DNA from: Hylemonella sp. | Lineage (GTDB): Bacteria > Pseudomonadota > Gammaproteobacteria > Burkholderiales > Burkholderiaceae_C | Length of the DNA stretch: 64,000 nt | Direction of reading: 5' to 3' | Assembly: GCA_030680575.1 (NCBI GenBank) | Contig: JAUXVI010000030.1 | Location: forward strand, 62,001 to 126,000 | Shown: positions 40,226 through 44,785 of the stretch, in pieces | Layout: every line of letters starts with the position of its first letter | Numbering within the stretch: the first letter of the stretch is position 1 | Program-made: the position numbers and the translations under genes | The notes under the pieces: model-generated | Told to the model about the DNA's origin: nothing | The model's input: the letters and a program-made list of their open reading frames with translations, nothing else | Databases searched by the model: none

Positions 40226-40290
40226 TCAAATTGGGCTGTAGCCCTTGTTAATAAAGCGCCAGTAGCTATGCTTTTGATAGCTATCCAAGA
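40226..40290 (-). repeat. TAGCT-type repeat element (family 2) at the topB stop
   Basis: On the minus strand: GGATAGCTATCAAAAGC, ATAGCTACTGGCGC, TTATTAAC, then AAGGGCTACAGCCC. The topB stop TAG (40281-40283) is the TAG of GGATAGCTATC. It shares TAGCT, GGCGC and GGGCTACAGCCC with the element at 49877-49946. Confidence 0.6.
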
Positions 40291-43202
40291 TGCTTGCCGA
40301 CGATGCCAGCCAGCTCGAACATCGTGACCTGCGGCTTGCCGAACACCGGCAGCAGCTTGGCGTCGGCGTTGATGGCGCGCTTGTTGGTCGCGTCCTGCAG
40401 GCCGTTGGCCTTGATGTAATCCCACAGCTTCTTGACCACCTCGGTGCGTGCCACTGGTTCGTTGCCGATGACGGCCGCCAGCGCCGCGCTGGGCACCTTG
40501 CCGGCTGCCGGCTTGCGCGGCGCCTTCGGGGTGGCGCTCTTGGCCGGTGCTTTCTTCGCGGCAGCTTTTTTCGCCGGCACCTTCTTGGCGGCTGGGGCAG
40601 CTTTGGCCGTCGTCTTGGCCGAGGGCTTGCGTGGCGGGAATTTGCTGGGTGCGAACTCGAAGTTCACCTTGCCGGCTTCGGCGTCCCAGGCCAGCATGGC
40701 CTTGAAGGGGCGGCGCGTGCGCATGGAGACGAACTTGTCGAGCAGGTCGGTTTTGCCGGTGGCCAGCAGCTTTGTCATCTGCTCACGCTCGACCGGCTGT
40801 TGCAGGATGATCTGGCCGCTCTTGAAGTCACAGCTCGGCGTGGCCTGCGCCATCGTTGGCACCGATTTTTCGCAAACGTAGTTCTTGCCGTGTTCGTACA
40901 CCGCGCCGCCGCACTTGGGGCAGGCGCCGAGCGATTCCTTGGCCGAGAAGTCCACCAGCTCGCCGGTTTCCTCTGCCTTGTCGTCACCGAAGTCGAATTC
41001 GAGTTTGTAGTTCTTTGCCTCTTCGTCGAACTTGATCACCATCTCGGCCGTGAACGGCCAGCCGGCCTTGGAGCGGAAGCCGTCCAGCGGGCCGATGCGT
41101 TTGTCGCGCAGGAACTGCTCCACCTCGGCCACCTCAAAGGTGCGGCCGGCCGGCGTCTTGCCGAAGGAGAAGCCGCAGCCTTCGCTGTTGCCGTCCTTGC
41201 CGGTGCAGGCGTAACGGCGGTAGTTTTCCTTCACCACGCCGCCGCAGTTCGGGCACGGCGTGGTGAGGGTGGCGTAGTCGCCCGGCACGGTGTCGCGGTC
41301 GTATTCCTTGGCCTTCTTGACGATGTGCTCGGTCATCTCGGCGATCTCGCGCATGAATTCGTCACGCGAGAGGCGGCCGTGTTCCATCTCGGCCAGCTTG
41401 TATTCCCATTCGCCGGTCAGCTCGGGCTTGGAGAGTTCTTCCACGCCCAGGCCGCGCAACAGTGTCATGAGCTGGAAGGCCTTGGCAGTGGGGATCAGCT
41501 CGCGCCCTTCGCGCAGCATGTACTTCTCGGCGATCAGGCCTTCGATGATGCTGGAGCGGGTGGCTGGTGTGCCCAGGCCTTTTTCCTGCATGGCTTCGCG
41601 CAGCTCATCGTCTTCCACCATCTTGCCGGCGCCTTCCATGGCGCCCAGCAGCGTGGCTTCGGAGTAGCGGGCCGGCGGCCGGGTCTTCAAGGCCTTGGGG
41701 TCGACCTGTTCGGTCTGCACGCGTTCGCCCGGCTGCACCGGCACCAGCATCTTGCTGCTGCCCTCGCCCGGGGCCAGTTCGTCTTCGGCTTCCTTGCCGT
41801 AAATCGCCAGCCAGCCCGGCTTGACCAGCACCTTGCCTTCGCTCTTGAAGGCGTGGTTGGCGGCGGTCGTGATGCGCGTGGTCACCTGGTATTCGGCGCT
41901 GGGGAAAAACACCGCCATGAAGCGGCGCACCACCAGGTCGTACAGCTTCTGCTCGGCGTCACTCAGGCCGCTGGGGGCCTGCAGCGTCGGGATGATGGCA
42001 AAGTGGTCGCTGACCTTGGCGTTGTCGAAGATACGCTTGCTGGGCTTGATGTAGTTGTTGTTCAGCGCCGTGAGCGCGTGCGGCGCCAGGTGTTTCATGC
42101 CGGAGTCGGCCAGCATGCCGAAGGTGTCCTTCACCACCGGCAGGTAGTCCTCGGGCAGGTGGCGTGAATCGGTACGCGGGTAGGTCAGGGCCTTGTGGCG
42201 CTCGTACAGGCTTTGCGCCAGCGACAGCGTGGTCTTGGCAGAGAAACCGAACTTGCCGTTGGCCTCGCGCTGCAGGCTGGTCAGGTCGAACAGGGCCGGC
42301 GAGGCCTGGGTGGTGGGTTTGCTTTCCTCGGTGACGGTGGCGCTCTGGCCGCGCACGGCGTCGGCGATGGCCTGCGCTTCCCGTGCGGACCAGACGCGGT
42401 CGGCCTTCTGTTCCGGGTCGGGCTCCACGCCCTCGCTGGCCGGCGCCTTTTTCCATTTCGGGTCGAACCACTTGCCGGCGTATTCGCCGGCTTGCGCGCC
42501 GAAGCTGGCGTGCACCTCCCAGTAGTCGCGGCTGACGAACTTGCGGATTTTTTCTTCGCGTTCCACCACCACGGCCAGTGTCGGTGTCTGTACCCGGCCA
42601 ACGGTGGTGAGGAAAAAGCCGCCGTCGCGCGAGTTGAAGGCGGTCATGGCACGCGTGCCGTTGATGCCCACCAGCCAGTCGGCCTCGGAGCGGCTGCGCG
42701 CGGCGTCGGCCAGCGGCTGCATCTGCTTGTCCGTGCGCAGCGCATTGAAACCGTCGCGGATGGCCTGCGGCGTCATGCTCTGCAGCCACAGGCGGCTGAC
42801 CGGCTTGCCCAGCGGCTTGGCGCCACCGGCGTACTGCTCGATCAGGCGGAAGATCAGTTCCCCCTCGCGGCCCGCGTCGCAGGCGTTGACGATCTTGTCG
42901 ACGTCCTTGCGCTTGGCCAGTTTGACCACGGCGTTCAGGCGCGTCTTGGTCTTGTCCACCGGCTTGAGGTCGAAGTGCGGCGGGATCACGGGCAGGTGGG
43001 CAAAGCTCCACTTGCCGCGCTTGACGTCGTACTGCTCCGGCGCCTGGATCTCCACCAGGTGGCCGACCGCGCTGGAGACGACGTAGGTGTCGCTCTCGAA
43101 GTATTCGTCATGCTTCTCGAACTTGCCAGCAATCGGCGTGAGGGCGCGCACGATGTCCTGGGCGACCGAAGGTTTTTCGGCAATGACCAGTGTTTTGCTC
43201 AT
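40281..43202 (-). CDS. topB: DNA topoisomerase III with C-terminal SWIB domain
   Basis: Type IA topoisomerase that decatenates DNA and resolves recombination intermediates. About 973 residues: TOPRIM domain with D109-A-G-R-E-G-E, active-site Tyr341 in LTYPRTDSR, core domains to about 640, and two Cys4-type zinc segments (CPNCGG...CTGKDGNSEGCGF and CPKCGG...CEKS). A Lys/Ala/Pro-rich linker (about 865-905) follows, then a SWIB/MDM2-like domain (VARTEVVKKLWDYIKANGLQ...). The ATG at 43202 gives MSKTLVIAEKPS; an ATG at 43217 is also possible. Divergent from the SET gene across a Z-DNA-prone spacer. Confidence 0.95.
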   Translation of the reverse strand: MSKTLVIAEKPSVAQDIVRALTPIAGKFEKHDEYFESDTYVVSSAVGHLVEIQAPEQYDVKRGKWSFAHLPVIPPHFDLKPVDKTKTRLNAVVKLAKRKDVDKIVNACDAGREGELIFRLIEQYAGGAKPLGKPVSRLWLQSMTPQAIRDGFNALRTDKQMQPLADAARSRSEADWLVGINGTRAMTAFNSRDGGFFLTTVGRVQTPTLAVVVEREEKIRKFVSRDYWEVHASFGAQAGEYAGKWFDPKWKKAPASEGVEPDPEQKADRVWSAREAQAIADAVRGQSATVTEESKPTTQASPALFDLTSLQREANGKFGFSAKTTLSLAQSLYERHKALTYPRTDSRHLPEDYLPVVKDTFGMLADSGMKHLAPHALTALNNNYIKPSKRIFDNAKVSDHFAIIPTLQAPSGLSDAEQKLYDLVVRRFMAVFFPSAEYQVTTRITTAANHAFKSEGKVLVKPGWLAIYGKEAEDELAPGEGSSKMLVPVQPGERVQTEQVDPKALKTRPPARYSEATLLGAMEGAGKMVEDDELREAMQEKGLGTPATRSSIIEGLIAEKYMLREGRELIPTAKAFQLMTLLRGLGVEELSKPELTGEWEYKLAEMEHGRLSRDEFMREIAEMTEHIVKKAKEYDRDTVPGDYATLTTPCPNCGGVVKENYRRYACTGKDGNSEGCGFSFGKTPAGRTFEVAEVEQFLRDKRIGPLDGFRSKAGWPFTAEMVIKFDEEAKNYKLEFDFGDDKAEETGELVDFSAKESLGACPKCGGAVYEHGKNYVCEKSVPTMAQATPSCDFKSGQIILQQPVEREQMTKLLATGKTDLLDKFVSMRTRRPFKAMLAWDAEAGKVNFEFAPSKFPPRKPSAKTTAKAAPAAKKVPAKKAAAKKAPAKSATPKAPRKPAAGKVPSAALAAVIGNEPVARTEVVKKLWDYIKANGLQDATNKRAINADAKLLPVFGKPQVTMFELAGIVGKHLG

Positions 43203-43236
43203 AACGGCGTTTTTCATCTGACTACAATCCAGTTCT

Positions 43237-43281
43237 CGCGTGCGCGCATGCGCATGCACGTGAGCGCGCACACGCGCGCGC
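43237..43281. other. Alternating purine-pyrimidine tract (Z-DNA-prone)
   Basis: Bases 43237-43262 (26) and 43264-43281 (18) alternate pyrimidine and purine without exception, mostly CG and CA/TG steps, with a single phase break at 43262-43263. It fills the middle of the 112-base spacer between the divergent topB and SET genes. Such tracts flip to left-handed DNA under negative supercoiling. Confidence 0.85.
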
Positions 43282-43314
43282 CCATACGGATTCACCTTAC
43301 CAAATTTTTCAGCC

Positions 43315-43911
43315 GTGTCCAAACAAGCCCCCGCAAATCCCAGCCGCCGCATTCAGACCCGTCGCTCCGGCGTCCATGGCAAGGGGGTGTTCGCCGTGCA
43401 GGACCTCGCCGAAGGCGAGACCATCATCGAGTACGTGGGGGAGGTGATTTCCTGGGAGGAGGCGCAGCGTCGCCATCCGCACGACCCGAAGGACCCGAAC
43501 CACACCTTCTACTTCCACGTCGACGAAGACCATGTGATCGACGCCAAGCACGGCGGCAACTCCTCGCGCTGGATCAACCACTCGTGCGCCCCGAACTGCG
43601 AGGCTGACGAGGTGGAGGGCCGCGTCTTCATCAAGGCCTTGCGCAACATCAAGGCCGGCGAGGAACTGAACTACGACTACGGCCTGATCATCGACGAGCC
43701 CTACACCAAGAAGCTCAAGGCCGAGTACCCGTGCTGGTGCGGCGCCAAGAGCTGCCGCGGCACCCTGCTGGCCCCGAAGGACGACGAGCCGAAGAAGTCC
43801 AAGAAAAAAGACAAGAAAAAGAAGGACAAGGCAAAGAAAGACAAAGTGAGCAAAGCCAAGGCAGAAAAAGGCCAGGCCAAGAAATCCAAAGCCAAGGGCG
43901 ACAAGCGCTGA
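43315..43911 (+). CDS. SET-domain protein lysine methyltransferase with lysine-rich tail
   Basis: Bacterial SET protein of 198 residues, starting at GTG (43315). The SET domain (about residues 9-125) has the N-terminal GVHGKGVFAVQDLAEGE, the SAM/substrate motif NHSCAPNCE (about residues 89-97) and the YDY motif in ELNYDYGL. A post-SET-like cysteine group (CWCGAKSCRG) follows. The last 45 residues are almost all Lys/Ala/Asp/Glu, resembling histone H1-like tails, which suggests DNA or acidic-protein binding. Methylation target unknown. birA follows after 31 bases. Confidence 0.88.
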   Translation: MSKQAPANPSRRIQTRRSGVHGKGVFAVQDLAEGETIIEYVGEVISWEEAQRRHPHDPKDPNHTFYFHVDEDHVIDAKHGGNSSRWINHSCAPNCEADEVEGRVFIKALRNIKAGEELNYDYGLIIDEPYTKKLKAEYPCWCGAKSCRGTLLAPKDDEPKKSKKKDKKKKDKAKKDKVSKAKAEKGQAKKSKAKGDKR

Positions 43912-43942: not shown

Positions 43943-44785
43943 ATGAAACCCAGCGGACGCGTCTTGAAATGGCCGGCCGAGGCGATCTGGGAGGCCGTGG
44001 CACCCACCCTGCCCGGTTTCACGGTCGAGGTGCTGCCGCAAATTGATTCCACCAACACCGAGCTGATGCGCCGCGCCCGCGCCGGGCAGGCCGAACCGGT
44101 GCTGCTGGTGGCCGAAACCCAGAGCGCCGGCCGGGGTCGGCTGGGCCGGCAGTGGGACAGCGGCACGGCTGAGCAGGTTGGCGCGGCCCTGACCTTTTCC
44201 CTCGGCCTGCCGCTGCAGATGGCGGACTGGTCCGGCCTGTCGCTGGCGGTGGGTGTGAGTGTGGTGCAGAGCCTGCACCCCGACCTGCAACTCAAATGGC
44301 CCAACGACATCTGGCTGCACGACCGCAAGTTGGCCGGCATTCTGATCGAGACCGCAAACAACGCCCCCACGCTGGCCACTGCTGCCGCTGGCACCTTGGG
44401 GCAGCCCGGTGCTGCCGGTAGCGGCGCCATGCGTTACGCCGTCATCGGCGTGGGTATCAACATTGCACCGCGCACGGCCACCGGCCTGGCCACGCCGCCG
44501 GCCTGGCTGCAGGAGCTGGAACCCTGCCTCGATGCGCCCGCCGCGCTGCTGCGCGTGGCCGCACCGCTGGTGCAAGCCGTCCAGCGCTTTGAAGCGCAGG
44601 GTTTCGCGCCGTTCCGGGAGGCTTTCCTGCGACGCGATGCGCTGTCCGGCCGCTCGGTGAACCTGAGTGACGGTAGCCAAGGGCTGGCGCAGGGGGTGGA
44701 CGGCAGCGGCGCCTTGCTGGTGCATACTTCGGCGGGTCTGACCCGGGTCAACAGCTCCGAGGTCAGCGTCCGTCCCTCCACCTGA
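43943..44785 (+). CDS. birA: Biotin--[acetyl-CoA-carboxylase] ligase
   Basis: Attaches biotin to the BCCP subunit of acetyl-CoA carboxylase. The 280-residue protein has the ATP/biotin motif GRGRLGRQWDS (about residues 70-80), LKWPNDIWL and KLAGILIE. No N-terminal helix-turn-helix precedes the catalytic domain, so this is a class I ligase without repressor function. The SPOR-like gene follows after 15 bases. The usual Burkholderiales neighbour coaX is not present here. Confidence 0.93.
   Translation: MKPSGRVLKWPAEAIWEAVAPTLPGFTVEVLPQIDSTNTELMRRARAGQAEPVLLVAETQSAGRGRLGRQWDSGTAEQVGAALTFSLGLPLQMADWSGLSLAVGVSVVQSLHPDLQLKWPNDIWLHDRKLAGILIETANNAPTLATAAAGTLGQPGAAGSGAMRYAVIGVGINIAPRTATGLATPPAWLQELEPCLDAPAALLRVAAPLVQAVQRFEAQGFAPFREAFLRRDALSGRSVNLSDGSQGLAQGVDGSGALLVHTSAGLTRVNSSEVSVRPST

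Follow-up and report, generated by a model that had tools for sequence, protein, structure and literature searches.

An alternating pyrimidine-purine tract between topB and SET-birA in Comamonadaceae, a candidate B-Z switch under selection for alternation

It is, to our knowledge, a long-standing open question whether Z-DNA serves any selected function in bacteria. Z-forming inserts reportedly block transcription (Peck and Wang 1985; Ditlevson 2008, T7 RNA polymerase). Promoter elements that form Z-DNA, called Z-flipons, are described in PMC3024258 mainly near eukaryotic transcription start sites. Divergent genes such as the leucine operon of Salmonella and ilvYC of E. coli illustrate, as presented in PMC10642903, how transcription alters the supercoiling of a shared spacer, and the excludon concept as set out in PMC7154746 includes long overlapping 5' untranslated regions. 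Here we analyse an alternating pyrimidine-purine tract in a stretch of 64,000 nucleotides (nt) from Hylemonella sp. (contig JAUXVI010000030.1; hereafter the window). The tract lies between topB, which encodes DNA topoisomerase III, and a divergently oriented gene for a SET-domain protein that is followed by birA.

The tract (43237..43281, assigned to no strand) can be compared with each of these systems. Z-forming DNA downstream of a start would slow or block the polymerase, as in the insert templates, but those were engineered and the tract would be a natural element. Like Z-flipons, it is alternating pyrimidine-purine DNA at what are here predicted transcription starts, with a flip predicted under transcription-driven negative supercoiling (PMC3024258); unlike them, it is bacterial, occurs family-wide at one orthologous spacer between facing promoter-like motifs, and comes with evolutionary evidence for selection on alternation over letters; no Z-binding protein was identified, in an analysis that made no search aimed at one. 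The gene layout suggests the coupling through spacer supercoiling described for the leucine operon and ilvYC (PMC10642903), whereas here a conserved element capable of the transition from B-form to Z-form DNA (B-Z) would be the sensor. As in excludons, the divergent 5' ends are predicted to overlap (PMC7154746), but the predicted overlap is short and is made of a structural tract. In the open-access literature, we recognised no report of this element and no work on Z-DNA in Comamonadaceae. Comparison of related genomes suggests that natural selection has preserved the ability of the tract to form left-handed Z-DNA, and we favour, at somewhat better than even confidence, the reading that the spacer is a control region conserved between two divergent operons, with a B-Z switch in the DNA that is transcribed first in both.

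In the window, alternation is unbroken at 43237-43262 (26 nt) and 43264-43281 (18 nt), with A43263 as the lone interruption, inside the spacer (43202-43315) that runs from the annotated-type topB ATG to the GTG of the SET gene. A preliminary description of this DNA had placed 44 of the 45 bases in two such runs; its coordinates were reproduced exactly, and the observation is confirmed in a stronger form than was stated there. Markov models of the 64 kb, simulated 100 times per order, produced no run of at least 26 nt, and runs of at least 18 nt occurred on average 0.64 times (first order) or 0.1 times (second order) per simulated 64 kb. The alternation score of the spacer, 36, was matched by 0 of 5000 dinucleotide-preserving shuffles (mean 11.7, maximum 33). 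So long a run is also rare in the genome (3.42 Mb, 93% complete), where a pyrimidine-first 26-mer is found once, as this tract, and one of the opposite, purine-first phase is absent. Pyrimidine-first 18-mers occur at five further places; 13 windows with purine-first 18-mers were counted genome-wide as a total without places, of which at least one would be the 18-nt run described here. Other long alternating runs were seen at L002-L005 and at further places in this genome (G000). Identity as a tandem repeat was dropped, since Tandem Repeats Finder (minimum score 30) returned 0 rows for 43000-43500; the tract does not qualify as a simple sequence repeat.

The tract could have been absent or random in close relatives, and it is instead conserved in both close and distant ones. 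Within the genus, the SET gene was present in 26 of 26 genomes searched and the tract, by score, in 25 of 26 loci. Across the family, we sampled 150 genomes representing 126 genera; 141 of them have a SET homologue, and the tract scores in 120 of the 130 loci examined in this one-per-genome set. Outside these 130 are ten weaker best matches (G138, G093, G039, G137, G054, G166, G101, G172, G066 and G149), a locus at a contig start (G082) and second copies of SET. Pooling the genus, the family sample and named loci gave 233 family loci, or 215 after removal of 18 duplicate tract-plus-flank sequences; the tract scores in 203 of the 215, compared with 9 of 1221 control windows from the same loci, which are mostly coding. 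Its length ranges from 16 to 73 nt. Named carriers include Ramlibacter, Polaromonas, Limnohabitans, Variovorax, Hydrogenophaga, Acidovorax, Comamonas and Curvibacter, on the basis of which the family is taken to be Comamonadaceae in the broad sense.

Beyond the family, we examined 27 SET loci in 25 genomes. None had an alternating run longer than 12 nt within 300 nt upstream, and in none of them was a divergent topB found beside SET. In three of the non-family loci (L255, L256 and L260, all from one other family of the order), topB is downstream of SET and convergent, and the tract is absent. Starting from topB instead, we examined the 30 best topB loci from 80 genomes, 28 of them outside the family; of the 28 upstream regions, a single one just reached the threshold, through an interrupted run located 655 nt away. 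A pyrimidine-first 26-mer was present in 26 of the 60 family genomes searched; among 58 genomes of the order from outside the family, 6 had one, or 9 once the purine-first control counts are included. Mapping it in 25 of these 26 family genomes (all but G054) placed it in this spacer in 23, nowhere else in 17, and also or only elsewhere in 8; by windows, 87 of 145 are in the spacer and 58 of 145 elsewhere. The claim that such tracts are rare elsewhere thus holds for the most part and fails for those eight genomes: long alternating runs are not confined to this spacer in every genome, yet they recur here. Long runs at other places were also seen in the family genomes G030, G044, G045, G047 and G088.

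Further evidence comes from the pattern of substitution. We compared 55 non-overlapping pairs of loci, defining the tract in one member only and reading its aligned partner; three pairs whose partner is tract-less were retained, and L096 (topB not found in the locus), L233 and L016 (both cut by contig ends) were left out. Transitions in the tract amount to 0.098 per site, against 0.089 at four-fold degenerate sites of SET, while transversions are depleted 5-7 fold, at 0.026-0.034 per site against 0.179 (p < 1e-53, a value that treats sites as independent and pairs that are disjoint but not fully independent phylogenetically). In the 24 gap-free pairs, transversions fall to 0.010-0.017, against about 0.13 at four-fold sites. 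The remaining intergenic sites of the same spacers have 0.109 transversions and 0.064 transitions per site. Phase is maintained as well, with an odd number of breaks in only 2 of 110 broken tracts. Because transitions proceed at the neutral rate and transversions are depleted, selection appears to act on pyrimidine/purine alternation and not on the letters, a conclusion that we regard as near certain provided that the alignments are sound. Two other designs were set aside. Defining the tract in both members is biased towards few transversions, and an ungapped test of equal-length regions gave no difference (p about 0.13), being spoiled at wide distances by one-base register shifts, such that some shifted pairs had 2 transitions versus 36-38 transversions.

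Mutation alone could in principle remake a functionless alternating tract, through dinucleotide slippage or composition bias. The wide variation in length would fit such an origin, as would the G+C-rich composition of the tract, the eight family genomes with 26-mers elsewhere and the gaps, of which 57 of 97 are of even length in alignments of the tract with its 12-nt flanks (24 gaps are of 1 nt, 30 of 2 nt and 10 of 4 nt). But no tandem repeat was detected, the depletion of transversions persists in gap-free pairs, and the tract occupies the same position in 203 of 215 loci, when simulated decay at 0.18 transversions per site leaves 20% of tracts scoring. We therefore consider a mutational origin very improbable. 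A coding constraint on the tract was ruled out, since 86 of the 97 gaps are not multiples of three.

Each flank of the tract carries a conserved motif. On the left, at 43223..43228 on the plus strand, is TACAAT, a predicted sigma-70 -10 element for SET-birA. The exact motif precedes 178 of the 203 family tracts, at a distance of 7-10 nt in 154 of the 178; among the 25 others, 13 have variants (TAGAAT, TATAAT, TAAAAT, TATACT, CACAAT and others) and 12 have a tract scored further right or cut. The left-flank logo was anchored on TACAAT. On the right, at 43294..43302 on the minus strand, TGG-TAAGGT is a predicted extended -10 element for topB. It is an instance of the motif TGN-TANNNT, which in the 203 right flanks has all three specified letters of TANNNT at 0.99 each and, within TGN, G at 0.97 and T at 0.76. 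The two -10-like motifs face each other, so that the start sites we infer lie at the tract edges, at about 43235 for SET-birA (left) and about 43287 for topB (right), and both predicted transcripts cross the tract. Sigma-70 consensus promoters with a -35 element were also considered, and the scan for them in the region was empty. A terminator scan of the region found nothing.

In 167 loci, the facing motifs have a median spacing of 55 nt (5-95% range 41-72), which implies overlapping 5' ends and raises the possibility of excludon-like regulation, in which each promoter would control the other (through collision, occlusion or antisense RNA), leaving the tract as no more than a spacer or a substrate of RNase III. 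At this locus the facing -10-like motifs are present, no -35 element was found, and the overlap is a prediction from the motifs. Such regulation leaves unexplained why alternation is kept while the letters drift, and as the explanation of the tract we judge it quite improbable, although it could act together with a B-Z switch.

We estimated the energetics of the B-Z transition from the dinucleotide and junction values in Table 1 of PMC3024258, for a domain of 5 kb. The tract of the window has a predicted critical superhelical density (sigma) of -0.038 and is the easiest Z-forming site in the scanned tiles, which cover all but the last 200 bases. For the 203 family tracts, the median critical sigma is -0.0394 (quartiles -0.0404 and -0.0382), a narrow spread that is partly built in, as critical sigma varies little with tract length. 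A value of -0.040 or easier was obtained for 138 of the 203 tracts but for none of the 931 control windows, which were drawn from every third locus. In the model, the transition is thus predicted at attainable negative superhelicity, and published energetics support the description of the tract as prone to form Z-DNA. Where alternation is broken, GG and CC account for 235 of the 362 break steps, a bias that may also reflect the G+C-rich composition of the tract; according to the same table, these are the cheapest out-of-alternation dinucleotides for Z-DNA. In a survey of alternating purine-pyrimidine (RY) patterns (PMC4060949), these are under-represented in beta-proteobacteria and B-Z transitions are suggested to be generally undesirable; the survey also notes that over-representation had been reported for this group earlier, against a simpler null model.

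Selection for alternating steps does not by itself specify Z-DNA. The tract may instead be flexible or kinkable DNA, or the site of an architectural protein that reads shape and needs alternate pyrimidine-purine steps. Such a step at every second position, with the steps kept and the letters free, is what this explanation would predict. TA is the most flexible step, however, and TA is mildly depleted in the tracts rather than enriched (177 versus 232 expected). The variation in tract length (16-73 nt) and in the spacing of the -10-like motifs (41-72 nt) is also unsuited to a fixed protein geometry. We consider this explanation improbable.

The main rival is selection on RNA. The tract would form the 5' end of the topB or SET messenger RNA, where a self-folding hairpin could control stability or translation. 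Alternation permits self-pairing, with pyrimidine opposite purine, and family tracts show a strand asymmetry that such pairing might explain. On the SET-sense strand, CA (1118) exceeds TG (442); a plus-strand CA becomes GU-tolerant on the topB transcript, and tract RNA folds more strongly in the topB sense than in the SET sense (mean -23.8 versus -18.7 kcal/mol). Mutation bias tied to the gene strands was rejected as the cause of the CA excess, as the four-fold skews of neither gene fit, and a secondary preference at the RNA level is possible. Yet in the 181 tracts that are 25 nt or longer, the order of dinucleotides folds slightly better than permutations that preserve alternation and dinucleotides, a small but non-zero difference (mean z -0.36, standard error (SE) 0.08, in the SET sense; mean z -0.22, SE 0.09, in the topB sense), and transitions proceed at the neutral rate although many would create A-C mismatches. 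Alternating RNA folds anyway, and a specific hairpin as the conserved feature is unlikely by this folding model. Rfam gave no match up to E=1 in region 42900-43600, which ruled out identity with a known RNA family and is a further point against RNA-level selection. Overall, we regard selection on RNA as unlikely, if less so than the other alternatives.

Z-forming capacity is, in our estimate, probably the reason that alternation is kept, and the preliminary description is in part supported: its Z-DNA idea is the leading hypothesis, and its topB feedback circuit is a proposal. Conservation, selection on alternation, the model energetics and the placement between facing -10-like motifs support the Z-DNA reading. 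Several observations weigh against it. The small effect of tract length on critical sigma is one, and two sites of 14 nt in the window (2169 and 47292) are nearly as easy to convert, at -0.0399, so that separation is weak. The predicted critical sigma of the tract is near, and not clearly below, the effective superhelicity in cells; transcription-driven torsion would thus be needed. Ten of the 130 family-sample loci have no scoring tract, and five of these (L069, L084, L124, L142 and L152) have no run of at least 10 nt. Of the six readable genomes that lack SET, the tract is missing from two, which belong to one genus, and is interrupted in a third, with runs of 11 and 10 nt. No -35 element was found for either predicted promoter, in the scan requiring one or in the left-flank logo. 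Finally, the excess of CA over TG is not predicted by a pure requirement for Z-DNA, and the mild depletion of TA also counts here.

How a B-Z switch might operate can be outlined. Two sigma-70-type -10 elements would face each other across the tract of 16-73 nt, with topB transcribed leftward and SET-birA rightward from starts at its edges, and selection would hold alternation, and hence the capacity for a B-to-Z transition near a sigma of -0.04, without holding the letters. Polymerases departing in both directions would leave negative supercoils that gather in the tract, which above a threshold would flip to Z-DNA and take up the torsion. This would put left-handed DNA into the first transcribed bases of both promoters and restrain new rounds of initiation, or promoter escape, for as long as the torsion persists. 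That the flip acts as a throttle of this kind is a possibility that we rate at less than even odds. A single switch for facing promoters would then be a topological governor, sensing the torsion of its own divergent transcription and jointly throttling topoisomerase III and SET-birA. The same joint reading, which we consider less probable than its negation, includes a two-letter pyrimidine/purine code in which transitions would be silent and transversions meaningful. The weakest step would be homeostasis by way of topB, since topoisomerase III is known chiefly for decatenation and less for keeping supercoiling constant.

Of the genes on either side, topB (40281..43217, minus strand) encodes a DNA topoisomerase III with Pfam domains Topoisom_bac, Toprim, Toprim_Crpt and a C-terminal SWIB, and NCBIfam NF011313 (DNA topoisomerase III) exceeded its cut-off. 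The start kept in relatives is the ATG at 43217, and a second in-frame ATG is at 43202. By eye, the tail of the protein is rich in Lys, Ala and Pro and resembles histone H1, in addition to the SWIB domain. The SET-domain protein (43315..43911, plus strand; Pfam PF00856, E=1e-25) has a Lys-rich C-terminal tail, and it is conceivable that the SET methyltransferase and the topB tail are an enzyme-substrate pair. birA (43943..44785, plus strand), for biotin--[acetyl-CoA-carboxylase] ligase, scored above the cut-off of NCBIfam TIGR00121 and is probably co-transcribed after SET. It is downstream of SET in the same direction in all 130 family loci long enough to judge, and topB is the leftward neighbour of SET in 226 of the 233 family loci; of the seven exceptions, several are cut by contig ends.

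The tract is not specific to topB, because the region is common to SET-birA, because the tract keeps its place where another gene is inserted ahead of topB, and because it survives in part without SET. Nine loci (L163, L165, L173, L182, L033, L034, L035, L040 and L044) have an extra leftward gene between the tract and topB, which in both loci tested (L163 and L033) belongs to a redoxin/thioredoxin-like family. The proposal that the tract belongs to SET alone, suggested by loci that seem to lack topB, was rejected, since topB lies behind this gene, also leftward; partial tracts that survive where SET has been lost refute it as well. SET has no match in nine family genomes, of which eight have a topB match. 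Setting aside one genome without a topB match (G074), one whose match is cut at a contig end (G104) and one with the start of SET at a contig end, recognised by eye (G147), birA is directly divergent from topB in all six readable genomes, and three of the six keep runs of 17, 17 and 12, and 21 nt. In two loci of one genus (L269 and L270), SET and the tract are lost and birA is divergent from topB; by eye, TACAAT and the minus-strand -10-like motif are kept.

An orthologous spacer in which transitions are free and transversions are purged provides an evolutionary test of selection on DNA shape. It is also a ready-made experiment, since any of its letters may be exchanged in ways that either keep or break the alternation. 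If the proposed reading is true, these bacteria would possess a sensor of supercoiling that is part of the DNA itself, adjoining the gene for a topoisomerase.

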